Assembly (NCBI GenBank): GCA_001051155.2
Contig: JYIP02000005.1
Span: forward strand, 496,001-560,000
DNA length: 64,000 nt
Direction of reading: 5' to 3'
Source: Chrysoporthe austroafricana
Lineage: Eukaryota; Ascomycota; Sordariomycetes; Diaporthales; Cryphonectriaceae
Part shown: positions 3,022-39,394 of the stretch, one piece after another
Numbering within the stretch: position 1 is the stretch's first letter
Layout of the letters: every line of letters starts with the position of its first letter
The notes under the pieces: model-generated
The model's database searches: none
The model's input: the letters and a program-made list of their open reading frames with translations, nothing else
What the model was told of the DNA's origin: nothing
Made by a program: the position numbers and the translations under genes

Positions 3022-3357
3022 GTAATAGTAGTTGTGCGCCTCAAAATAGCATGGTATATTGTAAGATTATGCGCTGGTTCCACTTTACTATATTAGTGCC
3101 TTAAGCAGGAACTTTTTTCCTGGCTAACCGCTTTCCACCCTTGAGTTGACCGCTTTCCTAGCTCAGCGCTTTTATTTTTGGCTAAGCGCTTGTGCTTGCA
3201 TGCATATCAAGCGCTTGCTGATCGCTTAGATACTTAAAGACCAATTACTCCCAGCCTTTATTCTAAGTCCTTGCTTCACTCTTCTCTTTTCGTACATTCC
3301 TTATCTTCCTTACGCCTTTATAATTCTTCATTTCTGACCTTATTATTATTCACCCTA
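3022..3357. other. Left end of the insertion, upstream of the captain relic
   Basis: Noncoding segment between the retrotransposon break and the first ATG of the DUF3435 relic. It is visibly less AT-rich than its surroundings. It carries a cluster of CGCTT motifs (listed separately) and then a pyrimidine-rich stretch at about 3260-3350 of the kind seen before fungal start codons. It probably holds the 5' terminus and the captain promoter. Confidence 0.45.
3126..3228. repeat. Iterated CGCTT/AGCGCTT motifs
   Basis: Six copies of a short motif lie within about 100 bp: ACCGCTTT near 3127 and 3149, AGCGCTTTT near 3165, AAGCGCTTG near 3184 and 3209, and ATCGCTTA near 3220. AGCGCT is self-complementary. 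Clustered short motifs at a transposon end are often recombinase-binding sites, but that role is only an inference here. Confidence 0.5.
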
Positions 3358-5600
3358 ATGGACTATCCCCGGAAAGCGCGATAGCGCGCTGGTTTCCGGT
3401 ACTCTGCCTCCCCAAATATCCGAGCCAATATAGCCGATACTGCCAATATGGACTTCTATAAGCAGAAGATCCAAGCATATACGGCTCAAGGCCTTACTAA
3501 ACCTTGTTATAGCAAGGCTGCTCAAAAGGCTATTGCTATTGAGCTCAAAGCATAGACAATATAAGCTCCTGACTTAAGGTTATACAGGATTTGTATTAAA
3601 TTATAACAGGTTTATATAGAGAATATGCTATAACCTATTGCAGATTCTTGCTAAATGTGAAGTTCCTGTTTTCAAAGCATATTTGCATTGGCAATTGAAA
3701 AGATCCCGTATCAAAAAGCGTTTAGCTATTAAGATATACTGGAAAGCGTTATCGATATTATATAATGATCAGATATATTACTGGATAAGTAACGATATGC
3801 TATTCGATATGAGAAATATAAATTTGAGGAATATCCTTTTATACTATTTAGATATTTATATAATTCTAATGGATTCGATAAGATTTCAGTTTCGAATTCT
3901 GCTTCGATATTTTAAAGAAAAATAAAGCCGGATTCTTTATCGAAAATCTTGATATCCTTCTATACTATTTATAGGTATACGATAATAGGATTGTCCTATA
4001 TGAACGATTCCGCATACAGGTAGCTTCGATTTTTATAATAGCTAGGGCGATATCGATACGATTTGACGCTTTGATCGGCAATATACTTTACAAGTATATC
4101 GAGTTTCAGATTTTCCTACTTAGCAAACCGGGATCGCGATCGCGTATCGGGTTAGTCCTAAACCTGGAATATATTAAAGCGAAAGCAAGGAATCGAATGA
4201 TCTTTGGGTTCCATAAAGAGCAAATACTATTATATAATCCTATTGCGTATCTGCTAAGCCTAGCTCTTGCGGATAATGCTTTTTCTAATAATATCAAGAG
4301 CATAGGCAGCCTGTATCAGATAATGGTACCTTAGCATATTGATCGCATTCGTTTTCTTTGGAAACCGGAATAGTACGATCAGCCGATCTTTCGGGATATC
4401 GAGATAACTATATACGGTAAGGCAATTAGCGCAACTAAGCTTCTGCCTTATTAAAAAGCAAGGCAGATTCTTCTACGCTTGGGAAGGGCGATAGGATATG
4501 CTAAAAGCCTCGAATTCTATAACTTCCGATAAGGCTTAAGCAGGATGCTTAACGGTAAGATCTTATCTATATTTCTATCGATTTATAACGCTAATATAAT
4601 TACAGAGGCTTTAACCCCGGAAGAGAGAAGTAAAGCTATAGGCTACCGTACTAGCAATTCGAATATTTTCTTAAACTATTATCTTCCCGATTTCATTAAT
4701 GCCGACTATTAGAGTATCATTTTCGGAAGCAAGCTATAGAAAGACTTGCTCTACTGTATAGGTCGCTTATATCGGTACGGTAGCGTACTTAAAGAGCTTA
4801 CTCGAGAGCAGGCCGAAGAGGTTTATTCAGATTTTATGCTTATATCCTACCGAGAAAAATATACAGCCCGTCTAGCTGCGATTAAGAAGAAATACGGGAT
4901 TCGGGCTCGAGCAGCAAGTACAAAGCTCGACCAGGAATATAGCTAATATAACAAGCTGATTATTGCAAAAACGGGCCAGCTGAAAAGGGAGCGGCTTGCG
5001 CAAGCTATTAGAGATTTCCATAAGTTCGCATATTTCACAGAAATAGAACGTTAGCTCAGAAAATAAGACCTTTCGGTCAGCTTCTAGTCTCTCGTCGAAT
5101 ACGAGCTCCTAGAACGGCGCAAGGTTGCAAAGATCTTCATTTACGAAAGCTAATAGATTTCCGAAATGAAACTGGACGAATGTCAGGTTAAGCTGGTTAA
5201 TATATTGAAGAACTTTTGCATACGCAAAGAAAGCGGCTAGCATACGAAAGCCAATGCCAAGTTCTCCCGGCCTCGCAAGCTTAAGCAAATAACCCTGTCT
5301 GCAATCTTTCTTTCTAGTCCGAAATGCATTTCGTACCTTTCAATACCGAATTACAAATTCTTCTATGCTTTTTGCAAATAGGGCAACCAAGCAATCGGCT
5401 CTAGTTAGCGGGAGAAAGAATACCGGATCGATAGACTAGTAAAGTACTAGGATAGCATCTACTATACTATTTTCCATTCGATAAACTTCGATTATCCCTA
5501 CGAAGGCTGCTATGCTATTTTCGGCAAAGCACTCTTTTCGAAAAACTGGGCCCGGCTTAGCTTCGGCAACTATATATATATTATATATAGCATCCCACTT
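3358..5600 (+). pseudogene. DUF3435 tyrosine recombinase relic (Starship captain-like)
   Basis: Remains of a DUF3435-family site-specific recombinase, the family that moves Starships. The frame begins at ATG 3358 or 3448 and is broken by TAG/TAA codons and small frame changes. Family landmarks in order: HWQLKRSRIKKR at about 3690-3725; LIGN...YKYIEFQIF at about 4072-4115; HKEQILLYNPIAYLLSLALA at about 4213-4275; DRIRFLWKPE...PIFRDIE near 4341-4405; a QILLRLGRAIGYAKSLEFYN box with the following R near 4466-4530, corresponding to the catalytic RxxR region; and a C-terminal zinc-finger-like end reading FDYPYEGCYAIF at about 5487-5522. The length suits a protein of about 700 residues. It lies at the left end of the insertion and points inward. 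Inactive. Confidence 0.88.
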
Positions 5601-5689
5601 CCAGCTTTATAGAACCTAATAGCTAGATATAACTATATCTGAATCTTTATACGCTAATCAGGATATAGAAGTTTCTTAAGCTTGAAATA

Positions 5690-6916
5690 AAGCCGTCCGG
5701 ATTAATCGAAAGGATAGAGAGTTACGAGGGCAAGTATAGAAAAGAATACGGCAGGAACGTTAGCTTTTATGGCATTACATTCTGCTTCCAAAGGCTATAC
5801 TTAACCAAATAGCTAGTTATATAGATTTCTTGAAACTATTCTCTCTATATCGTTTTAAATGCTTTCCATACAATGCTTAACTAGTTAGCAGAATAAATCA
5901 TAACGGGAAGAAAGACTTACATTAAGGCCTTAACCTGAAACATTTCCTCGTTCAAGCGATTAGATATACGATCGGCGCTTAGAGGGCCCCAATTTTTCAG
6001 ATAGATCTTACGCATCTCTATTATTACAGATATTATAAGTACTTTATTCGTATGTAAAGCAATCCGACCAGTAACAGAAAAAGAAATACAAAATCCTGCC
6101 TTTTCTAAGTCAGCCTGAAATAACGCTTCTATTACAGGCTATAGGAACTCCTTAAATTTCTTATTAACCTGGTCCTATTAAACTCCGCTATTATCAAAAG
6201 AATAATAAAGCTTAGCGATCTTAAGAATACTGTCAGGTCGGAATGTCCGCTAAGCCTTTTCAATAAACTTGTAAAGTAATAACTTGAGACTGCTAATCCT
6301 AAGATAGCCGCGAAACCCGTAAATTTGTATAAAGTCTTATATTTCATCCTTTACTGGGATATAGCTATTTATCGGGAGCAATAGTATAATCCTGAGATTA
6401 TTATATTATCTGTCAAACGAATACTTATTATAATGATTTATTGCAATTACGATAGCCTTATGGTTGAAAAAAGCAATATTATAGGCCTATAATAAGCTGC
6501 CGGTACTATAACCGAAAACAGCTTTGCCCTTCAAGCCTTGCAAATACTTGGCGTAATTCGCATTTAAGTTTAGGGGATATAAGCAGAATAGAAAGAGTAA
6601 TGATTTCTCTATCGCAATCCTTATAAATGCGAGCCTGGTTTCGAGAAGCAGCAATATTTATATTAATTTTCTGGACAAGTCCGTTAAAATATTAGCTTGC
6701 AATACTAGATAAATCCGAATAAGGTATAACCCGGTCGGTCTGCCCTTGAGATACTAAATTGCGAATGCGAAAACTTAGTAGATTTCCATTTTTCTGTAAT
6801 ATAATTAATTTAATTTCGAAAGTAGAAACCCAGGCCATTTGATATATATTATATAGTCTTTCTGATACTATATTAGTAATTAATTGCTCAGATAAAGTAA
6901 AGAAAGACTTTTCCAA
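5690..6916 (-). pseudogene. Unidentified RIP-broken coding relic
   Basis: On the - strand, from a candidate start at 6916, a protein-like frame runs about 100 codons and then resumes after frame changes to about 5690. Stops are almost all TAG/TAA, as expected from Gln or Trp codons hit by RIP. Protein-like stretches include NIYQMAWVSTFEIKLI, FIQIYGFRGYLRISSLKLLL and AGFCISFSVTGRIALHTNKV. I do not recognise the family. It lies tail to tail with the recombinase relic and may be cargo or part of another element. Confidence 0.4.
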
Positions 6917-7001
6917 AAGTATTAAAGTTTATATAAAGAAAACTGCAAGTTCTGGATTCTAAAGAGCAAATATATAGGATATTTATTTAAAGCATTTCTT
7001 T

Positions 7002-7153
7002 CCGCCCCTTAGCATGCCCTTTAATACGCCCCTTAGCATGCCCCTTAATACGCCCTTTAGTACGCCTTTTAGTACGCCCTTTAGCATGCCTTTTAGCATG
7101 CCCTTTAATATGCCTTTTAGCATGCCCCTTAGCATGCCCTTTAGCATGCCTTT
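7002..7153. repeat. 12-bp tandem array (AGCATGCCCCTT type)
   Basis: About 12 head-to-tail copies of a 12-bp unit with consensus ARYAYGCCYYTT, differing mostly by transitions. The same unit forms a larger array at 35645-35915 in the same orientation. It sits about 4 kb inside the left border of the insertion. Confidence 0.85.
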
Positions 7154-7248
7154 CAATTCAAGTATTTGTCTATAAAATATTATATTTAATACTAGAAAAC
7201 GTCTTTATAGCAATTAAAAGTTTTTGGATATAAATTACTATAATTAAT

Positions 7249-7605
7249 TTGCAAAGTTATACCTATAAGATTGCAGATATTATTGCAGATAGTATTGAAG
7301 CTGAATTTGTTCTTTTGCAAAACTACTTTTTTCAGAAAGGCAGCTATAGCTGCGCTAGTAAACCTATCCTGCCTATCTTAACAGGCTTCTTTCCCGATAA
7401 GAATTTTGTTTTTGGTATATCAGTAAGCAATAAGTTCTTATTACCTCCCTTAAATAGTATCGGCCGACGATACTGTTCCTTGAATTTCGAAGACCGCAAG
7501 TTAATTTTCCGAAATCTAAGCGGGTTCTATAATAGCATAGAAATAGCAGTTATTCTGGATAGCGAGCCAATTCCATTTCTGCATAGCTACTATTGCATTT
7601 TATAG
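7249..7605 (+). pseudogene. Unidentified short open frame in AT-rich sequence
   Basis: About 118 codons open on the + strand from a TTG, not an ATG, so the true start is not visible. The composition is ordinary for a globular protein (for example SNKFLLPPLNSIGRRYCSLN), which suggests a fragment of a once-coding region. No family recognised. Downstream, to about 8500, both strands have many stops. Confidence 0.25.
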
Positions 7606-9775
7606 GATATAAATAGTACTATCCATCCTATCTCTTATATTTAGTTCCAATTCCCTTATTACCTTTTATTCAGCTTTTACTTTTCCCATAGCATTCTATC
7701 TGAAATATACTTATTTCAAATGAATATGGATAGCTTAAAAAGATATATTACTATCGCGCCCCTGAAAAAGATTTCAGTCTATATAACAAAATGCTAGCGA
7801 AAACTATCCATTTCTGACTTAGCATGCATAGCTGACTTTCAATATATATATTATCTAAAATCCCTATAGCAAAGCTGCATTTAATATCTTCCAGTACGCT
7901 ATTATCCAGACTTATTTCGGAATATCGATTCCCAAATAATTCCTTATATTTTGGCTATATCAGAGCATTCTAGCAGATCTTGCCAATTACTTACAATTTA
8001 CAGCCTTTAAATGCTTTGAAATCGCCCGATAATGCCTTTCAAGCTTAGATTTCATTCATAAGCAAGGGTTTATTTATACAAACCTTAAGCCTAGCGCAAT
8101 TCTCGCTATGCAATAGGGCAAACGTATCGATATCCGGCTTTGCGATATAGGGTTCCGGAATAATTTCTTCGTCTAATTACCTTTCTCTGTACCAGAATTT
8201 AAGGAAAGGTTAGATAGTATATAGCAGAGCGATATATAATTTCTTGGTACGGTAATCTTGTATATAAAAGCTGGCATTCCGTAATTCGACAGGCAAAGTT
8301 ATTATTAGCAAGTCCTGACTAGCTAACTTCTGCTAAGGGAAACTAACGATATAATCCGGGTTCTGAAAGATAATATGCTATTACTGAATCCCAATAAACG
8401 GCACCGTATAAGGGAATGCTTGGAATCGCTCTTTGCCGGAAGCATAGCGCCTTGCATAGCGGCAAATATAGATAGAAATAGGGAAAATGGAAAAAGGGAA
8501 AAAGATACAGAAGGGGAGGAAGAGTAAGATAAGCTAGCTTATTCTTAAAAGCTATTCAAGACTGGCATAATTAATAGCTTCTTTTTATCTTCGCATAATT
8601 ACAAAAGTTCGTTTTCCTGAAATATAGGCTTTTATAAGAGAAAGAAGGATTGCTGCTATACAGAGCGTTCGCCTTATAAACTAGAGCTTAATTGGTACAG
8701 AAAAAAGAAGAGAGTTCCATTAACGAAATAATTTAATTTTAGTTTTAGTTTCCTGGAAACCGGAAAAGAAAGAGCTATAAGATATAAAAATACTTCGGCC
8801 TTTATGCATCCTTGCTCCGGCTGCTTATTAGATTAATATGAATTCTGGTAACCCTACTTCTTAACTAAGCTTATATATATTTATAATTTCCGTTATGCCG
8901 GAGATTATTATAGGTTTCTCATTCGGAATGATATAAAATATAATTGCTTATTAGCAAATAAGATCGGCATTTCTTGAATTTTGCTAAAACCCGTATCTAA
9001 GTTACCCGGCAAGTCAGACTTGAATGACTTTTAGAGCTTAATATAGCAATTCCTATTATAGATATTCCTATTCCATATTGGGTAGTGACGGAAATAGATT
9101 AGAGAAATTATAGAATACCTTTTCGGCAAGCGATTTTCGGGACGCTTAGGAATTTCGAGCCTATCTTTCGCGCGTTATAGGAAAACGATAGAGCCGCAGT
9201 ACAGGCATTGCTATGCTATAGCCGTAAGCAAGAGAAATAATAAAAATGCAGCAATTGTAAGGAAAGCGGAAGGCCGTTCAATAAATGCATTATGCTTTTC
9301 AATAAGTATAGAAACCGGTATTCTAATTGCATTATTACCAAATAACGCAATTGCATTTATGCAATAATCCAACCTTATAATTGGGATAATAATTACGTTT
9401 TACTATTATCGCTATAATATGAAAACTTGCTAGCCTCGCGACGGGTATTCCGATTGCATGCCCGATAGCAGCAAGATCCGCGAGCGCTAGCTCTTTAGCC
9501 GCAGTAATATCCGCAGGAAGTAGAGTTTGGGACTGAAGATAATCCAATCGATTTTACCGGAAACGATTGACCTGGCCTCCCGGTATAGATATAGAGCAGA
9601 TTCTGAAAGTAAAAGAACGGAAAACCGGAACTCGAGGCTTAAAGACGCGAATTTGATTCGTAGAAAACGCTTAAGTTCATCTCTCTTTTGGGATCTTAAC
9701 TGAAAAGGCCAGGTTTCTGTGCTATCTTATATCGATTTATTCCTTGAAGCTTTAAAGCTTCTTACTTATTAGTAT
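7606..9775. other. AT-rich RIP-mutated stretch, no recognised gene
   Basis: No frame I can assign. Some coding-like pieces remain, for example a 70-codon - strand frame at 9335-9547 containing LPADITAAKELALADLAAIG, too short to name. A purine-rich run (GGAAAAAGGG type) lies at about 8480-8530. Confidence 0.4.
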
Positions 9776-10140
9776 GGATAAAGCTTTTTTCTTTTTCCGC
9801 CTTCGGATTTTTCGCGATAAGGCCCGGCGGCTTATGCGTTCCCAATCGGGAATTAATATTAGCGTTTTTATCGAAAGCGCGGGAGGATTATATACGTTCC
9901 AGTCTTATAAAGGCTAGCCTATTTACCTTGAGAAAATCGACTATATTATTATCGAGCTATCCGGGTAATAGAAATTACCGAAATATGCTGCTTTTTAATC
10001 CCGCTTATTGATAAGCAAGATATATAGTTTCTTTCGCGCGGGCTTAGCATGCAGGCTACCTTCTTCCGGCGCTAAAAACCAGAATCCACTTCTTGGGTAT
10101 AGTATTAGCAGATTTGTATCAGATAGGCTTAAAAATTTAT
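9776..10140 (+). pseudogene. Unidentified RIP-broken coding relic
   Basis: A + strand frame beginning MDKAFFFFRLRIFRDKAR near 9775 stays protein-like for about 120 codons, broken only by TAG/TAA. It includes INISVFIESAGGLYTFQS and SFFRAGLACRLPSSGAKNQN. Family not recognised. It may be the remains of a cargo gene. Confidence 0.3.
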
Positions 10141-12900
10141 AAATTTATTTAATTTCTTTAAATTTAAAAAAGGAAAACCCGATTTGCATGCTACGAATTT
10201 GTAATTACGTTTCTCTATTTCGTATTGGCATTATGGTACGAGAGATTAGAAGAGGGTTTCGGGAGAATAAAAGGGAATGAAAAGGGGAAAGGGGGGGTTA
10301 AGATAAGCAATTAGTTTGCCTTTATGCCTAATATTAAGCTACTTTTGCCCCGTTTTCATATATATACTTTCCTATATGAGTATGGGAGCAGGTCTAAAAC
10401 CTGGCAGGATTATGGAATATATGCAGAATAACGTAACTATAACCATTATATTAAATAATTTCAACTTATGCTCTATAACTAATTGCATTTTAAAAATAGA
10501 GCTTATTCTTGAGAGCAAAAGCGAGCTAAACCGTAAGTTTTGTTAGTCTAAGTAATCTTATTCGCCTTGGACCAAATGGATCTCTTGCAATGCTAGTTAC
10601 TGGCTGGCATATCCTGGATACCGAAAGCCGGCATATTAGAATTCTAGAACGAAAAAGCAAAATTATAGAATTAGCATTTCCAAATTTGAATAGAAATAAT
10701 AACAGAATTAATATAAAAAGTAAGGAAGGAAGATTACTTAAGCATTACAATTTATACCTATACGTATTTTTGAATTATTTCCGTTATAATAAATAAAACC
10801 GATCCAGTTCAGAGCAAGAAATCGAGATGCTGTATAGAGAAATTCCAATATCGACAGCTCGGCCTTTTACAAAGGGCAGAGAAAATTCGAGCCGATTATA
10901 ATGCCCAAGTCTATATTATTATCTATAAAGCAAGCAAATTCTTTATATATACTTTATTGGCTAATTCAAACTGGCCGCTTCCGGTATAAGAGATTATACG
11001 TATAATTTATAATATATTGAAATAGCGTTAATATAATCCAGGCCAAGTATTACCCTTTATTCCAAATGCTTATACCGGAAGATTTTAAACCCAAGATAAC
11101 CGAGAAAAGCAAAAGGGATATTACTGAAACATTGAAGCAATCGATGCCGGATATTCAGTAGAGCGACTGGCTGCGGCTTTTGCAGCGCTCTGTATAGCTT
11201 TGTATGCTTCTAGTACCGCGCTCGGTAATTCCTTATCGGACTAAGCTGGATTGAAATATCAGTAAGGGGTCTTGAACGTAATATTAATAGAGATTCTCGT
11301 AAGTAGATAGAAGTTTGGATTCCTTATAAGATTATTGAGAAATGAATTGAATCTCTGGTTTTCCCTAATCAAATTCTGGATTCTGATTTCGGCCGCTATT
11401 AATTTCTGCTATGCTTGCTAAAGCTCGGCCTGTACATTATTGCTAGCACATTCCTAAGCCTGATAATAGTTCTGGCTTTGAATAAGTAATAATCGAGTAA
11501 TATTATGAAATTCCAATTCGTAATTCAAGATTTTATTCAAGTATTCTATCTGAGAAGTAGCGATACTGGCCGCAAATATAGAAGAACGTATAGGGGGGGT
11601 TAATCCCTGAGGAATTGTACGGTAAGGGGCAGATATTATAAGAGGAGATCGGATAAATCTAGGTAGCTTGAAGCTATATTGATTGAAACGATAGAGAAAG
11701 GGCTGAAAATACTTGAGATAGAAGGTAAATCTAGGTGCTATTTAATTATATTTCCAGAAGCGCTTATATAGCTAGCTCCTAGACTCTTCTAAGGGATTTT
11801 ACATTTCCAAGCTCGATATAACCGTTATTAGAATTATTATCGTAAACGCAATTAGTTACGGAAATCGATCTAATAATACGGCCCTATTAGTTACTATCGG
11901 ATTGGAAGCATTCATAAATCGAAATGCCGGGCTAATGGATATATTCATACCAATAATTAAGCTATTCTTGAAGCTTGAATCCTAAAAACCGGTAATTGAC
12001 CGAGGCTTTATGCTAGATTATATACTTAATAGGAAGTTCTACGAATTAGCGATCGCAATAAACGCTATATTCGAGAAGTTGCTTGAATTAAAGGAAATAC
12101 AAGTAGTAATAATCTCTATAACCTTAACAATTATAATAGCGTAAATAATAGCTACCGGAATATAACGTATTTACCCTTTCTATACATTAATAATATCTCT
12201 AGTCTGGGCAATACTATTGGATATAATTGCGTAATTATATATCGAATAAGGCTGGCTTGCATAATGATTATTTTTGGTTAGCTTAGTAGGCTAGTAGAGA
12301 TTCTATAGCTACTTATAAGGCTACCCGCGCGTCCCTATTGAGCGCTTGAACAGGAACGACAAATTCAGCAATCTGGACCGGTCCCGGGCAGTTATCAGGC
12401 TCGAAAAAATAGACAATAGGGAAGAAGTTTGGGTCTGCGAATAATAAGATAGCTTTATACGCTTTGTTATTAGGTTCCTTAATCCTAAACCTATAGCTTA
12501 ATAGGCAAATGCGAAGAAAGTATAGGGTATCTTATTCGAACAATACTAATAATCTAGCCTCGAACTGGAATGGAAGCTAGGACAAGCAGATACGTAGGAT
12601 CGAGCTTGCTAGAGCCAATGCAATATGCCTATAAATAATCGTAATCTATTTCATTCTTAAACCGGCAAGTAAGTTCGGGTATAAGGGCCAGAAAGTATCG
12701 CAGAAAATAACGAGGCGAAAGGAATGCTAGATTTATTATGCCTTTGCTTAGAGAAAGTCAGGAACTAAGTCCCTAAAACTAGTTCTCATTTTTCCAAATT
12801 CCTGATTTCCTTTCCAAGCCTTCAAAAATATCTTTTTTCATACTCAGCATACCGATCTATCTTTATAATACCGACTATTCTATTTTATAGCAAAATTGAT
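10141..12900. other. AT-rich stretch with scattered coding-like fragments
   Basis: No recognisable gene. A G-rich run (AAAGGGGGGG) is at about 10288-10300. Short open frames at 10316-10546 and 10590-10796 are AT-rich and unconvincing. Between about 11640 and 12300 a + frame is intermittently protein-like, with an Asn-rich run near 12100-12180, but no family can be assigned. Confidence 0.35.
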
Positions 12901-17770: not shown

Positions 17771-17849
17771 TAGCTATACCGGGATTCGAACTTAAGACTT
17801 TTTGATAGCAATCAAACAATTAAACGCTTTATTACTAAGCTATGTAATC
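17771..17849 (-). pseudogene. tRNA-like relic (decayed tRNA gene or tRNA-derived element)
   Basis: On the - strand a 79-nt segment has an A-box-like TAGCTTAGTAATAAAGC and a B-box GTTCGAATCC. A 7-nt 5' arm (GATTACA) and a 3' arm (TATAGCT then A) pair fully if four positions are restored from RIP-type transitions. The anticodon region is abnormal: TTTAATTG and TTTGATTG stand side by side as an 8-bp near-duplication, giving a 14-nt loop, so no anticodon can be assigned. It could also be the head of a tRNA-derived SINE. Confidence 0.5.
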
Positions 17850-22584: not shown

Positions 22585-22737
22585 ATCTACTATTAGACCT
22601 TATAGTATATCTGCTATCAGATATTAAGCGGTATTTGCTGTAAAATATTCTGTTACCAGATATTAACTTATATTTGTTATTAGATTTAAAGATAAATCTA
22701 TTACCAAAACCATTTTGCTATTAAAGGAATTACTAAT

Positions 22738-29328: not shown

Positions 29329-29957
29329 AGTACGCTATTGTAAAACGCTATAAAGAATAGCTTCTACTATAATAACCCTACCGAGCCAGTAATGCGCTAA
29401 ATAATACGTATATAAGGCTATACTGAAAGCGTTTGCAAAGATATTCGTACGGCTTCCAATGTATAGCGGGATAAGGTTAATAATTGCAGAAATAGCAAGG
29501 CTTCGAAGAAAGTCGAAAGCGCAAACGATAGCATTAGCTGCAAGAAAGACGATAATGCTGCATGCTTGTAAAGTAGTTATTCCTAATTCGCTTTATGCGT
29601 TTCGAGTTATTAGAATCGGGTATTTGATATATAGTACAAGCTATCGAGCAGTAGCATATATTTTCCTATAGCATTTATTAAGCAATAGGAGAGTAATAAG
29701 GCTTCCGATTGCAATTGCGTAATAATAGGTCGGCTTTATGCTTGCTATATAATAAATAGACTGCTCTGAAGCTTTTAGGTCTAGGGTATAAAGGTATATG
29801 CTTTTACGATTTTATTTAGGTTTTAAGTATTTCGAGCTAATTTTACAGTTTCTAATTTCGAGTTTTAGTACCGATTCTTATAAATTGCTCGTATTCCGTT
29901 ATTCTAGTATTTGGAAGAAAGCAAGCTTCTCAGTATAGCTTCCAATAATTAGCGATC
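29329..29957. other. AT-rich stretch, nothing recognised
   Basis: A 70-codon + frame at 29459-29671 (AEIARLRRKSKAQTIALAAR) is basic and protein-like but too short to assign. No regulatory or RNA feature seen. Confidence 0.3.
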
Positions 29958-30500
29958 AGGCTATGCTTTGCAAGTAAAAGGCATTTTGCTGCCGCTATCT
30001 AAAAATATTAACTCTGCTATTAATATATAAAACATTCTCTTGCATGGATGGCGGGGCAACTATCCAGAGCTTTCCAGATTTCTCCCGGCTCTTGGACTTT
30101 TTCCAGCCCCTGGACTTCTTCCACCTTTTCGCAATCTTCCAATTCCAATTCCAGGCTATGCCTTGCAAGTAGAAGGTATTCCGCTATCGCTATCTAAAAA
30201 TATTGATTCTGCTATTAGTATACAAAATATTCTTTTGTATAGATAGCGGGGCAACCGTCCAGAGCCTTCCAGACTTCCCCCGGTTCCTAGACTTCCTCTA
30301 GCCCTTAAACCTCCTCTAGCCCCTAGATTTCTTCCAGCTTCTGGATTTCCTTTACTTTTTCGCAATTTTCCAGTTCCAGCTTTAGGCTATGCCTTGCAAG
30401 TAGAAAGCACCCCGCCGCTGCTATCTAAAAATATTAACTCTGCTATTAATATGCAAAACATTTTCCCGTATGAATAGCGAGGCAATCGTTCAGGACTTTC
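29958..30500. repeat. Three tandem long repeats (about 195-230 bp)
   Basis: A conserved core of about 105 bp starting AGGCTATGCYTTGCAAGTA occurs at 29958, 30153 and 30383. It contains CTATCTAAAAATATT and ends near GCGGGGCAAC. Spacers are pyrimidine-rich (CTTCCAG/CCCCTGGACTTC type). Differences between copies are mostly transitions. Confidence 0.85.
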
Positions 30501-30540
30501 AAATATTACAGAAGCTATTCCTGGAATAGCATTTCAAACA

Positions 30541-30626
30541 AATATTGCAAGCAGCGCTATATTAGCACTCGCGCTAAGTTTTGCAGTATAGCTACCGCAA
30601 AATAATATTGCAAGCAGCGCTATATT
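30541..30626. repeat. Direct repeat of 23 bp
   Basis: AATATTGCAAGCAGCGCTAT plus ATT occurs at 30541-30563 and again at 30604-30626 without mismatch, which is notable in heavily mutated sequence. Confidence 0.8.
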
Positions 30627-31059
30627 TATCTTTAGTAATATAAATAATACTATTAATAAAGTATTTTCAAGCATAGGCTTTAGTAAGAATATATTACTTC
30701 CCGCGAAAACTTCTAAACTATTTGCAAATCGATAAGCATTAACGAATTCAGAAATAAAGAATAATTAAGCCAGTCAAATTAATGCATATAATATATATGC
30801 TAACCAAAATTAGGGAAATAATAATCAAAGAGGCCATTATATAAGAAATAGTAATAACTAAATATAAGCTGGTTACCAGGCAAGTAGCTATAATATTGCA
30901 GCTAATAGGAATAGCCAGTAAGCTAATAGCCAAAAACCTCAAAGCGGTAGAACCGATATGCAGGCTCAATTAAAGCATATAAGTGCCGAAACGATTAGGA
31001 ACTATCTTACAAATGCCCGTCCTAATTCTAGATAAGACCCAAGCCCTAAAGATTATATA

Positions 31060-32090
31060 TCGGAAAATATAAATATGCTAGATATAGGGTTTGCATATAG
31101 AAATGGCAATCTAATTAACCTGAATCCGGAAAATACGGTTAGCGCATATAATATATATAATACGGATAGCGCATATAATACGGATAGTCCGTATAATATA
31201 AGTAGTACGTATAATACGGGTAATACGAATAGTACAAGTAACCCGTATAATAACCCTGGGTATAACCCGTATATCGACTAGTTTTTGCAAGAAAAGAATA
31301 ATCCAGTTAACTTTCCAAATAACCCGGTTAACCTTCCAAATAACCCGGCCAATTTTCCAAATAACCCGGTTAATCTTCCAAATAACCCGGTCAACTTTCC
31401 AAACGACCCGGATAACCCGGATAATCAGGATTTATCTTTATTATCGTCTGATAATGATAATGCGAGTATTTATATTAAATTCCGCAATCCCAATATTAGA
31501 AATACGTATAGTCGTTATATAAAAGTGCGCGCTAAAGTTGCAAGGTCTTTGGCTATAAGAGGCAAAATGGTTATTGAGCTTCTTTCGCTAAATATGGAAA
31601 GCTGGATAAGGCATTTCACTATATCGTGCAGAGAATACGGAATTCGCTAAAGCGGACTTAACCTTTTCGCCAAACCGAGAAACGGGCGCTTAACGAATAT
31701 CGAAAAGCTGCATAAGCTGAAAAAGAAAAGAGTAGGGAAACCCGAAATTATTAGAGTAACAAGCATACCGGTATACGTAATGCAATTATAAGCAAATCCA
31801 ATATATTACTTGCGCTTAGAATTGCTAAAAAGGCTTTAATAGCATAGTAAGTCAGATACCGAAGCGGTTTGGGGCAGCATGCAAAGGCGCATACAGGAAT
31901 ATTGGTATAGATCGGGGCAAGAAAACTTACTTGAGCTTCGATTGGCTCCAGAGCGGGCATACTTGCAGTATATCGCGCTTACAAATGGGAAATAGGATGA
32001 ATATAACCTTTAAATGCGTACGAGGGCTTTACGCAATTATTAGCGCTAGGATAAGCATATTGTTTCTTTTTCTATTCTCTAGATTATTCC
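31060..32090 (+). pseudogene. Asn/Pro-rich repeat protein relic
   Basis: A + frame from about 31075 carries two low-complexity tracts: a Tyr/Asn/Ser/Thr tract at 31138-31280 and an Asn/Pro tract of NNPVNFP-type heptads at 31297-31430. A non-repetitive segment then runs to 31647 (YSRYIKVRAKVARSLAIRGK, MVIELLSLNMESWIRHFTIS). After a stop and a +1 frame change, coding-like sequence continues to about 32090, including NREKRALNEYRKAA and SKSNILLALRIAKKAL. Stops are TAA/TAG. Family not recognised. The organisation, a disordered repeat-rich N-terminus and a basic helical C-terminus, could suit a nucleic-acid-binding or gag-like protein. Confidence 0.45.
31297..31422. repeat. 21-bp tandem array, about 6 copies (NNPVNFP heptads)
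   Basis: Consecutive 21-bp units of the form AAYAACCCGGTTAACCTTCC plus one base, in frame, giving alternating NNPVNFP and NNPVNLP heptads. The reading frame is kept through the array. Confidence 0.85.
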
Positions 32091-32459
32091 TTTTCCAGAA
32101 TTAGATTCTTTTTCGATCTTTATTTTTCTATTTATTTAAATTGATTGCATATCTTATTATATAAATATAAGTCCAAGTGATTATTTGCATATGCATTCCC
32201 TATAATTTTTCCCTTATGCTAAAGGTTATAAGAAGAAAAAAGCTTTATCTTTTATGAAGTATTATATATTTTGATTTAACGCAAAGTCAAGCCGATAATT
32301 AGGACGAATTCGCCGATAGCTTTGGCCTGTTATCCCCCGCTTTTTGCTATCCGTAAGTATGCCGCTTTCGTACGATTTTCAACTTAAGAACTTGCAATAG
32401 TAATATCTGCCTATATATATGAGCAAGGCTACCCCGAATCTGAAGCTTTCCAAAAGTTC
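32091..32459. other. AT-rich spacer
   Basis: Very AT-rich. No feature seen apart from possible remains of the upstream end of the ankyrin relic that follows. Confidence 0.3.
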
Positions 32460-33450
32460 TGCCAATTAAACGAGCGTTAATTGGCTTCTAACCTTATTGA
32501 GTATTGCCGACCTCGTACCGATCCTGGATTTTTCAAGCCCATTCTGCTATTTCATATTCCGGCAGGCAAATATTCAGTTTCGGTTTCCGGGATTATAGAT
32601 GCAAGCGCCCGAATTCTAAAAGCAAGTATCTGGATTCTGGCTTATAGCGGACGCTATCCTATAAGGCAGCTGCTCTTATTTACGGAAAGCCGGCTGAAAG
32701 ATATGCGTTACTAACTTATTATAACCTTTCGGATTTCGTTGCCGCCTTTACCTATATCTATTTCAAACTCACTTACGCTTTAGCCCAATTTGCGTACGGA
32801 TAAGCGCGAATTATTTGCCCTTGCTACTGCTATTTTAGCTAGGGAAGCGGACCGAATACGCAGCCTTATCGGTATGGGGATCGGATTTATATTAACTTAC
32901 TATTGGGTTCTTTACGAGGCTTATTTTCAGGGGATATATATAGTCGATATCCTATTGCCTAGCCAGCATATCGATTTCAATGCTATTATCCTTGATGCGA
33001 GCAGTAATCCTCTTTTTTTCTTTATCTTGCAAACCCTTTTATCCCGTTTTGTAATAGGAGAAAAGGTCGCAATTGTTATACGGCTGCTGGATAACGGTAT
33101 AGATCCTTATCTATTCGATCGTTTCGGATAGATAATACTGTATATTGCTGCGGGGCTAGGATCTGATAGCGATATTCTTTTCTCACTTTTGCTCGGAATA
33201 CCGGCAAGGGCGTATATCAACTTTCAGAACAGCTTTCTAGATACGCTATTCGCGGCTGCTATCTTTTCGGACTATTACGAGGCCGTTCGGGTTTTTCTGG
33301 AATATAGCGCGGATATAAATGTAAAGATGGAATTGGGAAAACTTGCAATATAGCTCGCGTTCCGGCGAGGCAATATAGAAATAATCGATTTATTGCAAGC
33401 ATATAGCGCGGATTTAGATATTGGTTTGCTTTATAATATAAATTGTAAGC
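32460..33450 (+). pseudogene. Ankyrin-repeat protein relic
   Basis: One + frame, broken by stops, spans two open stretches (32481-32714 and 32790-33131, same phase) and continues to about 33450. After an unassigned N-terminal part, KRELFALATAILAREADRIR leads into repeats: AIVIRLLDNGIDPYLFDRFG, IILYIAAGLGSDSDILFSLL, FAAAIFSDYYEAVRVFLEYS with ADINVKMELG, and LAFRRGNIEIIDLLQAYSAD. These match the ankyrin consensus (A-x-G...LLxxGADIN) with RIP-type substitutions. At least four repeats remain. No N-terminal NACHT, HET or F-box signature is visible. Confidence 0.78.
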
Positions 33451-33534
33451 AATAATATAAAGAGTTCAATATTTCAATGGATATAGCAAATATATCGGAA
33501 GATCTCTTTTGTCGTATAGAAACTAGCTAATATT

Positions 33535-33948
33535 TTAAGGGAAAAGCAAATCCCGAACTGTAACCCTAATCTTTTTGTCCAGAGGCATTTGGAAAATAGC
33601 GTTTTCCCTATTATCGCTCGGCAAGACTATTGTAATATTAAATAGTATTTTATTTGGATTTAGTCCTTTATAAATCATTTCCCTTAAGAAGCTTTTTAGC
33701 CTGTTTTCCTTTGCGATATATAAGAGTAATGATATTAGCAATTCGATTAGAGTATTGCTTTGGCCGAAATAGATAGTGCTGCTATAAATCTCGATCTTAT
33801 ACTGGAAGAGTATTTTCGCTATAAGACTAATATATTCTTTCGCTATAGTTACTTTCAGAGAATATCTATCGCTATTGTTATCGTTCGGAAGGAGCATTTC
33901 GATTTTGGCAAATCGTTTACGGCTTCGAAAATACCTTTTGGTTATCAA
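33535..33948 (-). pseudogene. Open frame, possibly a further ankyrin-like fragment
   Basis: A 137-codon - frame that begins MITKRYFRSRKRFAKIEMLL. Segments such as SLIAKILFQYKIEIYSSTIY and LLISLLLYIAKENRLKSFLR resemble degenerated helical repeats, and the segment lies next to the ankyrin relic on the opposite strand. The match is too weak to assign. A shorter + frame overlaps it. Confidence 0.3.
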
Positions 33949-34151
33949 TTCAAGACTTAATAATAGCGAAGATAAGGATTTGATAAATAGGTCTGTATAT
34001 ACTATACCAGTATTGATATAATTATCCTAATATATGCTAGCATTTATATCGAGCATAAATATTGGATTATCTAATAAAATATCGAATTCCGAACCCATAT
34101 TGCTATTTTGCATAATGCTATTGGCTTGGTTTCTTAAGAATTAATTGTAAG

Positions 34152-34412
34152 GAGCTTGGTTGCTGCTAGTATAGTCGCTAGTTTAGTCGCTAGTCTATAT
34201 AGCGCTTTCGGAAGGGTCGTTAAGGAGCTGGTCTTTTAGGAACTGGTTATAAAGAGCTTGGTTGCTGCTAGTATAATCGCTAGTCTGGTCGCCAGTCTGT
34301 ATAGCGCTTTCGGAAGGGTCGTTAGGAAGCTAGTTTTTTGGGAACTAATCGTAAAGAGCTTGGTCGCTGCTAATATAATTGCTAGTCTGGTTGCTAGTCT
34401 GTATAACTATAT
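34152..34412. repeat. 102-bp tandem repeat, about 2.5 copies
   Basis: GAGCTTGGTYGCTGCTAR begins units at 34152, 34254 and 34356, an exact 102-bp period (34 codons). Inside are iterated TCGCTAGTCTGG words and TATAGCGCTTTCGGAAGGGT. A period divisible by three suggests a once-coding repeat, but no open frame survives. Confidence 0.85.
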
Positions 34413-35640
34413 CTTGTTAGCCCTATTCCAGCCCTAAATTTAATTAAGCCGATTGATTTACGAAGCTTTTGGGTCTTCTTGCGCTAGAAATATTAGGCGA
34501 GACGATTGCATATTTCTGTATTAAAGCTGGATTGAACTTTGCATGCTAGCCATTTCTGTAATTCTGAGTCTATGCATTTGATCTTGTCCAATAATTTCTG
34601 GCACGCAATAAAGCGCTTTCTATAACGATGCCCTTGAATATGGCTATATCGTTCGATAATATTAAAAGTATGCTATGCTTTTTTGCTCCCGGCATTTAGG
34701 AAGCGTACTGGAATCGAGTTATTAGGGATTATATCGAAAGCTATATATTCGATACGAAACCAGCATATAATTCTGAAATAGTCGCATATCTGGTTAGCGA
34801 GTTCTTTTATAGCTAGGTTATTAAAATGAATTAAAATTATAATTCCAAAGTTGACTAATGCTAATAAGGTAGTATAAGATTAATAGTAACGAAGGTCGGA
34901 ACGGGAAAGATAACGTTCGGGTTAGAGCATAATCTCTATATGAATGAAATATATAAGAAAGCTGCTTTCGGAAATAATAATATATAGCTAATAAAGCGAT
35001 ATTGCGAGATTACTGGAAGAGTTACGGGCTTTTGTATACTAGATACTAATACGATACAAGTAGCTATTTATTAGTCTTTTTATCCGAATTTAGCCCGAAG
35101 TTAACCTTAGCCCTTAACTCTAGCTATAGCGAATTTCCAATTTTGCAAATCCCGAAACTACCCAAATAGACCTCAAAACCTATAAGCATAGTCGCCTGCC
35201 TATTACAAGTATCGTACTTCTCGATCGGCATTATTATATCGCTAAATATATAAATCCAGACAGAATATGCCTTCCAGTATATTATTTGTCTTATCCCGAT
35301 AACCTATTGCCTTGCAAAACGGATATCCTTAAAGCCTAGCTTAAGTACTTTTGTAAGTAGTTTGATATAGACTGAATTAGGCTATAAATTGATTAGAGAT
35401 CGTTTAATGAAAAGGATTTCGGTTGATATATTTTGATATATTATTGTAAATCAAATTTGGCCATTAAAAGGAACGTTCAGAATAGAGCTAATTTGCTTCT
35501 TTCACTTCCGATTTCTTACAGAATAATAATACGTTTTAGCTCGTACTCATGCAATAAGAAATTGAGAAATAAGGTTTCTATTCAATTAGGTTTGGGCTTA
35601 TATAACCTATAACCTTTGTATGGATCTTTATATATGGGAT
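34413..35640. other. AT-rich stretch, nothing recognised
   Basis: No assignable frame on either strand. Scattered coding-like fragments only. Confidence 0.3.
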
Positions 35641-35644
35641 TTTT

Positions 35645-35915
35645 GCGCGCCCTTTTAGTACGCTCCTTAATGCGCCTTTCAATATGCCCCTTTTTGTATA
35701 GGATTTTTATATGCCCCTTAATACGCCCTTTAATGCGCCCCTTTCTGTATAGGATTTTTATGCGCCCTTTAGTGCGCCCCTTAGTGCGCTTTTCAATGCG
35801 CTTTTTAATGCGCCCCTTAGTGCGCCTTTTAATGCGCTTTTCGATACGCCCTTTAATGCGCCCTTTAATACGCCCCTTAATACGCCTTTCAGTCTGCTTT
35901 TCAGCCCGTTCCTTA
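35645..35915. repeat. 12-bp tandem array (TGCGCCCCTTAA type)
   Basis: About 20 copies of a 12-bp unit with consensus ARTRCGCCCYTT, interrupted twice by TGTATAGGATTTTTATRYGC. It is clearly related to the array at 7002-7153 and has the same orientation. The long + frame through it (Arg/Pro/Leu-rich) is an artefact of the repeat. Confidence 0.85.
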
Positions 35916-36159
35916 ATCCTGGATATTTATTCTATCTGTAATATAAATTTAAAATATATTCTTATTCAAAAAGAACAATTCTTACTATTTTATAGCCTTT
36001 GCAAATTACAAACCTTTTTGCCGAATACTTTTTACAAAATCAGAATAACCGTTACGACTATTACGATCGTTTCGATTATTATAAAAGTAAGCCATTTAAA
36101 TACCCGTTATAAATATATTTAGCTTATAGCAAGCTTAAGAATTTCGGTTCGCTCGTAAG

Positions 36160-37010
36160 ACTTATTTGTTACAAAGGGAATAGATTTCCAATAATTTGTA
36201 TACTTTCCGGCTCGATATTTTTCGGAAAGTCTCTCGTTTCCCCGGGCTGCTTTTGCCATTTATATACTGGGATTCTAGGCAATCCTTGCTTGAATCGATT
36301 ATCGTTAAGGAAACGAACGACTTTCCTCGTATATTGCGGATTTTCAAGCTGCTCGAGCAAGTCCAAAGCTCCTGTATTTCTGTTTGCTTCGGTAATTCCT
36401 TATATAATGGAAAGCCAAGTCTTATTTTGGAAAATATCGGAAAGCAATTACTTGATAAAGTTTCCTTATATATCTTGCTTAACCCGCAAGTATATAAGGT
36501 AGGAAGGTGCATAGCGGCCGATCTTGTTTATTCTGACCTGGTCCAGAAACTCAAGCATATATATGTAAGGCTGATAGAGAAAGGTATTAAGCTTGGAAAT
36601 CCGCGATTGCAGCAATTTCTCTAGAATCCTTATAGCGTAATAGCAGTTAGCATGGAATATGCGAATGAGAGTCTTTATGCTATTCGAAACAATTAGCGTA
36701 ATTTGAGCAGCCTTCTCTCGCTAATTTTAAATAAGATTTACGAAAAGAGGCCGTACTTGAAAAGCATATGCCAGTATCCTCTTTAAGTCTTGTATTTAAT
36801 CTCTATTAATTATTTACTGGCTTTATTATATTTCTGTTATTTTGGAATATTTCGTGCTATTATTTAGCAATTTGATATAGAATTCAAGCTGCTTTACTTT
36901 AATAATTTATTTCGGTTTCGTTAATAATTATTGGAACTGGCAGAATAAAAGCGGATAAGTAATATTATATTTGAAAGTAAATAGGTTCTAGAAATGCTTT
37001 CGGGGCTGTT
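36160..37010 (+). pseudogene. Unidentified RIP-broken coding relic
   Basis: A + frame is open at 36196-36624 (142 codons; FPGLLLPFIYWDSRQSLLES, SDLVQKLKHIYVRLIEKGIK) and stays protein-like to about 37010 with TAG/TAA stops. Antisense frames of similar length exist at 36162-36512, so strand choice rests on the longer continuation. No family recognised. Confidence 0.35.
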
Positions 37011-37735
37011 TTCTCTTCTTTATATTACTGGATAGAATAGCAGGCTTAAGCTTCTTGCGCTTGGCTTATAATTGCTTCTATTCGTTAATCAGCTCCTTTA
37101 TATGCTCTAAGTTGCTCAGGGGCTTTAAGGTAAGCTTCTACGCAATTATATAGAAGGTTTTATTATCGATAACCTCCTTTCCGATAATTTTCAGAGCTTC
37201 CTATTCTCTTGCTAGCAAATTCCTAAAGCTAGTCTCGTTATCCGCCCGAATAATTATTGCGTCTTATAATTCAGGATATAAAGCGGCTAAAATAGTTTCT
37301 ATAGCTATATTTAGCAAAAGGTAGTAAGTATTAAGCTCGGGATACGAAATAGCCAATAGTATTTCTGTAATAAGCGAGGGCTAGGGCGGTAGGCATGCCG
37401 TATATGGCTAGCAAGTATAAATCGCAAGTAATAAAGGCGAAAACCTAGTTAGAATAATTCTTCCGAGGCATAAATCTAATAGCATTTCAGTAAAGTTGTT
37501 ATCTATCTAGGGGTATATAGTCCCGAATAGGGGCTCGGCTTGCGTATAGATCGAAATAGGAAAAATAAGGCGTAAAACCGGTATCGCGCTTATTATATCA
37601 AAGCTGGAAAGATCTTTATATCGGCTTATAGCCGGGAGTTTTGCTTCCGGCAGAAATATAGGAAACGCTTCCGGAATTTCAGGAAAGCTAACGATAACTA
37701 GCAAGCTGGGTTCGAAAAAGTCGTAATGGCCAGGC
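37011..37735 (-). pseudogene. Unidentified RIP-broken coding relic
   Basis: On the - strand a frame from about 37735 reads FPEIPEAFPIFLPEAKLPAI and continues past single stops through EMLLDLCLGRIILTRFSPLL, ETILAALYPEL and an acidic/basic tail (KQLQAKRKKLKPA type, Gln inferred at stops) to about 36960. The LPEIPxE-like start and Leu-rich body could suggest an F-box or LRR-like protein, but this is a guess. Confidence 0.35.
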
Positions 37736-38350
37736 TTCCGCTAAGCTAGGATATCTGCTACGAAAGCCGATTTATAGTACGCCTTGCGATTATTTTAGAA
37801 TTATATCTATATTAGGACTTGGTATTAACGATATCTTAAGCAAATGCAAGTCTCGGGATTAGGCTATAGGTTTAAGCGAGCAAATAAATGCATATTGCTA
37901 TAGAGAATACCCGGTTCGGTTTTACTAAATTGAAATTTTTTCGTAAAAGGATTATAGCTATAAATCTCAATAGATGCTATTATATAATCGGCTGAAAAAG
38001 GGAGTAATAGTATTGAAGCTAACGAATTCAGTTTTACAAAAGGGCGCAATTGCATTTTTTGTATCCGGATATAGCATTGGACATAACGTTCGCGCTTAGT
38101 ACTGCATATAATTATAAAGTTAATATGCTTAAGACCTATTGAATATCGGATAAGGTAAAATATTAGCATTTTTACCGTCTCTTTATTTATCCGAGCTAAG
38201 AATTAATCGGAACTTTGTTTATAATCTTACGATCCGTATTATCTGCAGAAAATACCCGCAGCTTTTTTATTTGGTTGCAAAGAAAGGGCAATAACCCTAA
38301 CGGATCTGGCTATCAGGCCGATAAATTTCGTACTTGCGCTTTCAGCAATA
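37736..38350. other. AT-rich stretch with one short open frame
   Basis: A - frame at 37864-38169 (101 codons) is protein-like (CYIRIQKMQLRPFVKLNSLA). No family recognised. Confidence 0.3.
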
Positions 38351-38580
38351 TCGCAATATCCATTTGTCCGATATAAAGGTTTGCGCTTTCCAACTGAAGA
38401 TCGTAATTGCTAATGAAAGTCGTGCTTTTGCCGTCTCGCGATATCCGCCTGTCCAATACGAAAGTTTGCGCTTCCTAACCGAGAATCGTAACTGCTAATA
38501 AAGGTCGTGCCTTTGCCGTCTCGCGATATCCGCCTGTCCAATACGAGGGTTTGCGCTTCCCAACCGAATACTTATTACCC
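38351..38580. repeat. 85-bp tandem repeat, about 2.7 copies
   Basis: TCGCRATATCC recurs at 38351, 38436 and 38521 (85-bp period). Each unit contains GTCCRATAYRARGGTTTGCG and CGTAAYTGCTAAT. The second and third copies are nearly identical; the first differs by more transitions. Confidence 0.85.
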
Positions 38581-39056
38581 GATATCACTAAGGCTTCGCG
38601 ATTACAATATAACCCCGGGAACGGGACCTGTCTAAGCGCTAGGCAAAAGGCAAAAAGCGAAAGAGGGGGAGGGCGGAATCTCTTTGCGCCAGTACGATAG
38701 ACGATATCGCAACAAGTTCGAACCCTATTGGCGGTTACGATATAGTCTAGATGCCAAGGCTAGTTCTGCCCCCTTTTTTCGAGTTGGCCTGCCTTATTCG
38801 GACGACGAATACGCAATTATCAAGCCATTTCAGCGGTAGTATATCGGCAAATCTGTAATATCTTGAATCAGTACCTTGCGCTTTGCTCGCATATCAGCTT
38901 ACTAGGTTAAGACAATATATATAAAGTAATAGGGCTACTCGAGAAGTAGTATATCGGTATATTAGTAGCGAAAACCGGAATAGAACTTATATAATAATAA
39001 TAATTCGGTCGGTTGTATAATACTAGTAATGTCGCTAGCCTGTTACGGTCGGTCGG
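38581..39056. other. AT-rich spacer, nothing recognised
   Basis: No assignable frame. Mixed composition with a purine-rich patch (GAAAGAGGGGGAGGGCGG) near 38659-38676. Confidence 0.3.
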
Positions 39057-39394
39057 TTCAAGACTGAAGTCTTTCGGGCCCGCTGTTAACTAAATAGTAG
39101 TTAGCCTCGATATGTATATTTGGGAAGAGAATCTGAGAAGTATTTGCAAGAAATGGAAGAATAGGGCCAGAGCTGAGCGGGAATGGCGAAGCAAACATTG
39201 CCAGGCGTAAGGGCTTTGGGCGCGCGGGAAGAGAAGAGGAAGCTGGGACAGAAACGCAGAATTTATAGATGGCAGAAAAAAGTTCATGCCTGAGGCATAT
39301 GCGGGCCGCAATGCACGCACTGGCCATACTTTCCTGATGCGGCAACAGGAGCTCGAAACGGCAATATATCACTGTTATAAAAATAGCTATAATT
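39057..39394. other. Weakly mutated right end of the insertion
   Basis: About 300 bp with clearly higher GC than the sequence on either side, ending near 39375 just before the retrotransposon resumes. Overlapping - frames (39058-39372 and 39090-39320) are present but look incidental. It is either the protected right terminus of the large element or a later small insertion. No terminal inverted repeat with the left end is obvious. Confidence 0.45.

Follow-up and report, generated by a model that had tools for sequence, protein, structure and literature searches.

What is the 36-kb insert that splits a gypsy retrotransposon of Chrysoporthe austroafricana in two, and how did it come to be there? 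We analyzed a window of 64,000 nucleotides that contains the insert (contig JYIP02000005.1 of assembly GCA_001051155.2, positions 496,001 to 560,000). A first-pass annotation of the window had proposed that the insert is a fossil Starship, or giant transposon, that landed in the retrotransposon. This mostly held up, except that the element is not a lone fossil: it is one of seven copies. We call the window copy W and the others A, B, C, D, E, and F. Our preferred explanation is that the Starship integrated at TTNCT(A) in a resident gypsy element, that most or all of its copying was over before the bulk of the RIP (premeiotic C-to-T mutation of repeats), and that RIP then hit the copies independently. 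We put the probability that this is correct at roughly 92%. The features of the window are listed in Table 1.

Table 1. The interrupted retrotransposon, the Starship within it, and their recognizable parts (window positions)
Positions	Strand	Feature	Evidence
1..3010	+	Ty3/gypsy chromodomain retrotransposon, 5' part (to mid reverse transcriptase)	
3008..3010	.	Target duplication CT(A), left copy	
3011..39386	+	36.4-kb Starship (copy W of the 7 found)	
3942..5210 (about)	+	First gene: captain of the DUF3435 tyrosine recombinase family, broken	Profile match
7898..8155	+	Protein kinase fragment	PF00069, sub-threshold at 28.5 bits (cut-off 31.7), read in copy D
15957..17141	-	Broken DUF3723 gene, Starship accessory family	227.4 bits, read in copy D
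18692..19987	-	Broken fungal protein kinase, Pkinase_fungal	315.4 bits, read in copy D
28576..29493	-	Remnant of a probable ferric reductase gene	Ferric_reduct and NAD_binding_6, read in copy D
33138..33419	+	Remnant of a gene with ankyrin repeats	Read in copy D
39387..39389	.	Target duplication CT(A), right copy	
39390..43179	+	Gypsy 3' part, remaining reverse transcriptase and downstream	
41374..41381	-	Intact target site in the window gypsy, minus-strand sequence TTTTGCTA	

The host of the insert is a Ty3/gypsy retrotransposon whose reverse-transcriptase frame ends at 3010 and picks up again, in frame, at 39390. The first-pass annotation had noticed the in-frame resumption, but it placed the edges at about 3021 and 39401, and the true edges are 11 bases to the left. 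We compared the region just left of the insert (901-3010) to nine paralogous gypsy loci, which are 84.9-87.4% identical to it. In 8 of the 9 paralogues, the match picks up again at 39375-39392 and continues for 1.1-1.5 kb; for the ninth (L015), the match past the junction is only 211 bp. Among the 40 gypsy places listed, 39 (all but the window's own) end at or before query base 610, which corresponds to 3010. The same paralogues match both sides, so the two halves are not from different families. The right half also matches the reverse transcriptase of Ty3 (PDB 4ol8, E = 2.1e-11). Searching Pfam and PDB with X-masked frames of the left half gave no match, and we consider this half to be gypsy because it is continuous with the paralogues, one of which has a single frame that spans the junction and matches reverse transcriptase, RNase H, and a chromodomain. 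In the gypsy element in copy A, a single frame matches Chromo and RT_RNaseH (above the cut-offs) as well as RVT_1 and RT_RNaseH_2 (below the cut-offs). Reverse transcriptase, RNase H, and a chromodomain in one frame, together with LTRs, are as in other fungal Ty3/gypsy chromodomain retrotransposons; the difference is that this one is heavily RIPped and serves here merely as a landing site. Its left LTR begins outside the window (at about C18:494133), and 208 bp of its right LTR are present (42972-43179). Near 42530, the window gypsy is about 2 kb shorter than the gypsy in copy A. The host species is a relative of the chestnut blight fungus.

The ends of the insert recur at other loci. The left 296 bases match at seven loci, and at six of these the match extends to the outermost bases; in B, the first 135 are missing. 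The right 300 bases match at six loci. This gives six loci with a left end and six with a right end, and five loci have both; B is without a left end and C without a right one. Both junctions in the window have CTA, and CT is the portion that is common to all copies, which corresponds to a duplication of 2-3 bp. We identified empty sites for three of the insertions (W, E, and D). These are paralogous loci of the one genome to which our comparisons were confined, rather than allelic sites. For W, the empty sites include the contiguous gypsy that the first-pass annotation suggested looking for, at paralogous gypsy loci. With the short target duplication, they bear out the claim that a Starship landed in the retrotransposon. 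The window gypsy contains another target site that is intact (Table 1), and in another gypsy copy, the counterpart of this site is filled by copy E.

Could the seven copies have arisen by segmental duplication or by ectopic recombination between repeats, instead of by transposition? In a plain count, at least one flank is in dispersed repeats at all seven loci, and ectopic exchange is plausible there. Also, F has gypsy on its left side only, and its right flank matches none of the gypsy pieces that we compared. But the readable ends are at the identical base while the flanks are different, and the empty sites for three copies are precise to the base, so this explanation is very unlikely. Another concern is that the block might be a composite of independent insertions that accumulated in one gypsy by chance. 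The gene content of the element is mixed, and it contains several minisatellites. However, copies A, B, C, and D are colinear with W over their common length, and the large secondary inserts that we saw lie in A, where they interrupt the common order. This refutes independent assembly for this site, and we give the idea almost no weight.

We then asked whether the genes fit a Starship. The DUF3435 profile matches the captain gene with 117.7 bits in the window copy and 140.5 bits in copy D (the cut-off is 25.8). As the first-pass annotation had it, the captain comes first and points inward: the profile match begins 0.93 kb from the left end, and a six-frame Pfam scan of copy D (with the outermost ~240 bases left out) found nothing ahead of it. 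The five captain relatives that were listed are 41-46% identical. For the probable ferric reductase, Ferric_reduct and NAD_binding_6 are in the same frame and in the correct order in copy D, with each under its cut-off. In the copy D frames that were scanned, neither patatin nor the NLR nucleotide-binding domain had a match at the threshold of E = 0.01. (Of 25 candidate frames, 20 were scanned singly, and the stretches of the other five were covered by six-frame scans.) Scans for tRNAs and with Rfam found nothing.

Judging from its sequence, the insert is a Starship, as originally proposed. It has an inward-pointing DUF3435 captain as its first gene, accessory genes (DUF3723 and the probable ferric reductase), a direct repeat, precise boundaries that recur at several loci, and empty sites. 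Other Starships of the Pezizomycotina share the captain, the DUF3723 gene, the probable ferric reductase, and the short direct repeat. For example, direct repeats of 2-12 bp are reported for 19 of 20 Starships from A. fumigatus (PMC12153272), and insertion of Starships into transposable elements and AT-rich DNA is described as well (PMC12134995). This element differs in having seven copies in one genome, captain stops in each of them, and no terminal inverted repeats that we could find, while 18 of the 20 A. fumigatus Starships are reported to have them (PMC12153272). Local alignment of the element's ends found no terminal inverted repeats, and there were no significant short subterminal motifs either. 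Shuffled sequences scored at least as high as the real ends in 307 of 500 trials for D and in 30 of 500 for W, and the best match lies about 37 bp inside; the ends are RIPped, and short or asymmetric repeats could escape detection. The target TTNCT(A) resembles direct repeats or target sites of the Phoenix, Arwing, and Prometheus families: Table 1 of PMC12153272 gives A(N3)TTACTA... for Janus and, for Gnosis, A(N3)CTA..., and CCCTA is given for Peleus (PMC12257634). We take this resemblance as no more than a lead.

The five copies that we read, W, A, B, C, and D, differ from each other almost entirely by C-to-T (G-to-A) transitions. Among their pairs, we counted 3,578-4,334 transitions and 0-6 transversions (for example, 3835:1 for W-C, 3738:0 for B-D, and 4334:6 for W-B). 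These counts are for positions 3250-39380, which leaves out the first ~240 bases of every copy. (Another count gave about 30 transversions for B and D, which were mostly due to misaligned left ends, so we set it aside.) Cytosines in D were most often T in W if the next base was A (0.336) or T (0.258), and less often if it was G (0.145) or C (0.096). The GC content of the copies ranges from 0.311 to 0.421. The composite RIP index was positive in only 13 of the 36 one-kb bins across 3001-39000. This index is a screening statistic, not a definition; it is calculated from CpA and TpA, with CpT left out, and it would tend to overlook RIP in this element. The divergence of the gypsy is nearly transition-only as well, in agreement with the earlier suggestion that RIP degraded both, and in transversions the gypsy has diverged about 9 times as far as the element has.

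To order these events, we used the transversions. Seven transversions group the five copies as (W,C), (B,D), and A: five of them divide the lineages (W,C) and (B,D), and the other two are private. Sister copies do not have more RIP changes in common than non-sisters do (stratified odds ratios), which suggests that most of the RIP came after the last copying. (Correlating RIP states across the variable sites gave values from -0.03 to 0.05, but we set these aside because omitting the invariant sites biases the test.) The captain's frame is interrupted by stops at all seven loci, and in the window there are 13 stops across the 422 codons of the profile span. Among the 19 stop positions in the five copies that we read, 17 differ between copies and two are common to all five. 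These two leave room for damage to the captain that predates the spread of the element. Alternatively, the common stops may be parallel hits or lie in an intron.

These patterns might have other causes. The transitions could have come from methylated cytosines of heterochromatin that were slowly deaminated, a process that also yields C-to-T changes, and the element is AT-rich and embedded in repeats. But CpA and CpT are altered more than CpG, and the counts for each pair, roughly 3,600-4,300 transitions versus 0-6 transversions, better suit a directed process. RIP at CpA and CpT is also reported in another member of the Diaporthales, Anisogramma anomala (PMC10998396), and we think that slow deamination is quite improbable. 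If the captain was broken by the time the copies spread, then another DUF3435 recombinase might have moved the element in trans. Elsewhere in the genome, there are DUF3435 matches that have few stops or none, which together with the two common stops makes this conceivable; the 17 stop positions that vary, and the potential for parallel RIP or an intron at the other two, make it unlikely. A more serious alternative is that there was never an interval free of RIP, and that intact copies arrived repeatedly by outcrossing and were each RIPped soon after. The existence of two lineages separated by five transversions would fit with this, as would the varying GC content. That sisters have no excess of changes in common fits either this or our preferred reading, within this one genome. 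We consider repeated arrival to be possible, but we would not bet on it.

Under our preferred reading, a Starship with a DUF3435 tyrosine recombinase would have entered a TTNCT(A) site within a Ty3/gypsy element that was already resident. The recombinase probably mediated the integration, by way of a short shared core. Most or all of the copying would have been complete before the bulk of the RIP, which would then have hit each copy independently and ended its mobility.

Starships that were killed by RIP, and Starships that are nested in transposable elements, have already been published, so the value of this case is its copy number and the clean dating. RIP-degraded elements include the "derelict" Pi-rho of Spiromastigoides and P. 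variotii (PMC11623301), the type A elements of G. tritici (PMC11905480), and the Limos of Fusarium, with transition:transversion counts of 813:26 and 511:45 (PMC12257634). In these accounts, RIP is extensive or element-wide, as it is here, and Limos were also assessed by counting transitions and transversions. The derelict Starships that they describe are single elements or pairs that were compared across species. Here, we could compare five copies from the same genome with one another; transitions outweigh transversions even more strongly, and the transversions yield a genealogy.

Of the seven copies, the five that we compared are near-identical except for RIP, so the order of copying, the later decay, and the choice of target can be read separately. 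The results also show that an RIP index based on CpA can overlook RIP that strikes CpT nearly as strongly, and that in a diaporthalean fungus, gypsy and other repeats act as a landing ground for Starships. RIP has been proposed to limit the copy number of Starships (PMC12153272). Our most tentative suggestion, which we think has a real but less than even chance of being right, is a full boom and bust: a run of copying without RIP acting, and then separate RIP on every copy. If so, the run lasted long enough for five transversions to arise between the lineages, with little other change afterward. It would also mean that a Starship is not limited to cut and paste but can multiply, in a lineage that is capable of RIP, to seven copies or more, and that the interval from copying to RIP can be measured by transversions alone.

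We compared both halves of the interrupted gypsy retrotransposon to nine paralogous loci in the genome (an assembly of 22 contigs, 48.15 Mb). Paralogues align with the left half as far as window base 3010 (40 places among those listed, of 190 first-look candidates). In 8 of the nine loci, the match to the same copy restarts at 39375-39392 and continues for 1.1-1.5 kb; at the ninth (L015), it restarts for 211 bp. The uninterrupted site is TTCCTATAACTA at two loci (L010 and L012) and TTCTTATAATTA at two others (L015 and L017), and the other four printed loci have similar sites, differing by C/T or G/A. Because the window reads TTCCTA and then the element at the left junction, and the element and then CTATAATTA at the right, CTA is present at both 3008-3010 and 39387-39389. 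The end of 3010 is a codon boundary, and the coding frame continues at 39390. The first-pass annotation had proposed that the gypsy frame is broken and then resumed in frame, at about 3021 and about 39401; this is borne out with the edges at 3010 and 39390, and the empty site with a contiguous gypsy exists as these paralogous loci. It also considered that the two halves might belong to different families, which did not hold: the same copies match both halves.

The host gypsy belongs to the Ty3-type chromodomain elements. In the gypsy that lies inside another copy of the Starship (copy A; see the table), the chromodomain (29.6 bits) and RT_RNaseH (25.0) are above the cut-offs, while RVT_1 (20.3, E = 0.00047) and RT_RNaseH_2 (25.9) are below them. 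All four matches share one frame, and RVT_1 spans the point equivalent to the insertion. The window's right gypsy half matches Ty3 reverse transcriptase; the left half alone, with stops masked, gave no match. We saw no clear target duplication at the borders of the host gypsy.

The block forms a single mobile unit. Matches were found at seven loci for the leftmost 296 bases and at six for the rightmost 300. Copy B lacks its first 135 bases and copy C lacks the right end, so there are six left ends, six right ends, and five loci with both. W (the window's copy), B, D, E, and F have 36.4-36.6 kb between the matched ends, and A is longer, at 54.7 kb, owing to two later inserts, of which one is a complete 10.7-kb gypsy. 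We compared the interiors of W, A, B, C, and D (E and F are known from their ends only). A, B, C, and D are colinear with W over the length that they share (A was read except for some 9 kb at its right), and we saw no sign that the block was built from several independent insertions, as had been considered. The six readable left ends have ...CT and then, across the junction, A(A/T)TA; the six readable right ends have ...AAAATAG and then CT.

Starship copies and other features (plain positions are window bases; C and L numbers are contigs and genome pieces)
Feature	Location	Remark
Starship copy W	3011..39386	this window
Starship copy A	C21
Starship copy B	C19
Starship copy C	C2
Starship copy D	C16
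Starship copy E	C17
Starship copy F	C18:103-140 kb
Piece of another gypsy copy	C18:493801-494131 (L050:1-331)	borders host gypsy on left
Gap in window's gypsy	42528-42534	lacks ~2 kb present in copy A's gypsy
Complete 10.7-kb gypsy within copy A	L020:553-10000 + L021:1-1322
Segment dissimilar to copy D	3146-3248	~100 bases near left end; both sides match
Starship minisatellites	7004-7177, 35653-35913, 22361-22646, 31276-31432, 34127-34432	units of 12, 24, 21, 102 bp; 12-bp unit recurs ~4 kb from each element end
Other DUF3435 matches	C19:1450582-1451737, C12:3446325-3447055, C20:3745132-3745767	few or no stops; may be captains of separate elements with less damage
Long homopolymer tracts of C and T, containing single N bases	50346-50541, 62779-63000	outside finding; perhaps assembly weak points

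Empty sites for copy E are in the window's own gypsy (41374-41381) and in copy A's gypsy. For copy D, they are in a high-copy repeat other than gypsy, with flank hits 11-16 bp apart in several paralogues, four of which we read. In six copies, the last bases of the left flank are TTCCT, TTGCT (four times), or TTTCT. At the right junctions, the base after CT varies, and D's is unlike all four of the empty sites read, which limits the duplication to CT, or at most CTA. A dispersed repeat is on at least one flank of 7/7 insertions (as a raw count). This repeat is gypsy for W, E, and F. The others adjoin different repeats, with 416 first-look candidates for A, 479 for C, 453 and 483 for D, and 19 matches for the right flank of B. 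The right flank of F did not match the gypsy pieces compared.

Transversions give a clock that is untouched by RIP. Between the left part of the window's gypsy and 10 other copies, there are 24 transversions in 21,096 sites (0.0011 per site); between the Starship and four other copies, there are 17 in 130,685 (0.00013). The gypsy's spread is therefore about nine times older than the Starship's (from small counts and non-independent pairs). Since a gypsy sits inside copy A, flanked by an apparent 5-bp duplication that RIP has blurred, gypsy was still mobile after that Starship inserted, and each of the two element families is found nested within the other.

GC content is 0.22-0.29 in the bins of the gypsy halves, 0.363 in the block between them, and above 0.6 in most one-kb bins from 43.5-61 kb. 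The flank includes TRAPPC10 (top-scoring match in Cryphonectria parasitica, 86% identity, among the best 120 of 1242 hits), which would probably place the host among diaporthalean fungi close to the Cryphonectriaceae. RIP had been proposed as the cause of the element's degradation, and the substitutions agree: over 3250-39380, any two of the five copies read are separated by 3,578-4,334 transitions and 0-6 transversions. Cytosines in D read T in W most often before A (33.6%) or T (25.8%), then G (14.5%) or C (9.6%). CpA and CpT are reported to be the dominant RIP contexts in the diaporthalean Anisogramma anomala (PMC10998396).

By their states at seven transversion sites, the copies fall into (W,C), (B,D), and A: five of the sites are common to groups, one is private to W, and one is private to A. 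(One shared site is in a minisatellite, and another lacks data for A.) Several gaps are concordant, with W like C and B like D; others are discordant, such as one common to B and W. If RIP acted between copyings, then these sisters should have extra RIP changes in common. The context-stratified odds ratios for a shared change were 1.99-2.51 for W-C, 2.47-2.89 for B-D, and 2.09-3.14 for non-sisters. Because the sisters do not exceed the non-sister range, we infer that most RIP probably came after the last copying among the five copies read, although the test is blind to a small shared part and to RIP before the first copying. All of the ratios exceed 1, for which shared hot spots are the best reading. 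Alternatively, the element may have arrived repeatedly by outcrossing.

Copy D has the highest GC content among the copies read (0.421). Its Pfam scan first covered 20 of 25 candidate frames and was then extended to six-frame translations, with stops written as X, across almost all of the element. The captain (DUF3435) is the first gene and points inward, just as the first-pass annotation had claimed. The scan also found DUF3723, Pkinase_fungal, and ankyrin repeats, as well as Ferric_reduct followed by NAD_binding_6 (both below cut-off) and a kinase fragment (below cut-off). Weak matches to DUF1638 (over the captain) and Gly-zipper_OmpA, both below cut-off, were disregarded. PMC12134995 names DUF3723 and ferric reductase among the prevalent or notable genes of Starships. 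Among the matches listed, the captain has five relatives at E <= 1e-10, which come from Verticillium and Mariannaea (41-46% identity).

The DUF3435 matches contain stops at 7/7 loci. In the five copies read, the captain frame has 6-14 stops per 422 codons, and 2 of 19 stop positions are common to all five. By our own reckoning from per-copy rates, independent hits would give about 0.3 such positions, so these two stops may reflect parallel RIP at hot spots, the presence of an intron, or damage that preceded copying.

Among the open-licence PMC papers listed, we found no report, by title or abstract shown, of this element or of Starships in Cryphonectria. Two papers mention both; in one of them the mention is confined to a reference. 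The literature already describes derelict Starships hit by RIP, Starships with several copies in some species, and Starships inserted into transposable elements (PMC11623301, PMC11905480, PMC12153272, PMC12134995), so the element belongs to a known kind. Its value is as a natural experiment on how a Starship multiplies and is killed.
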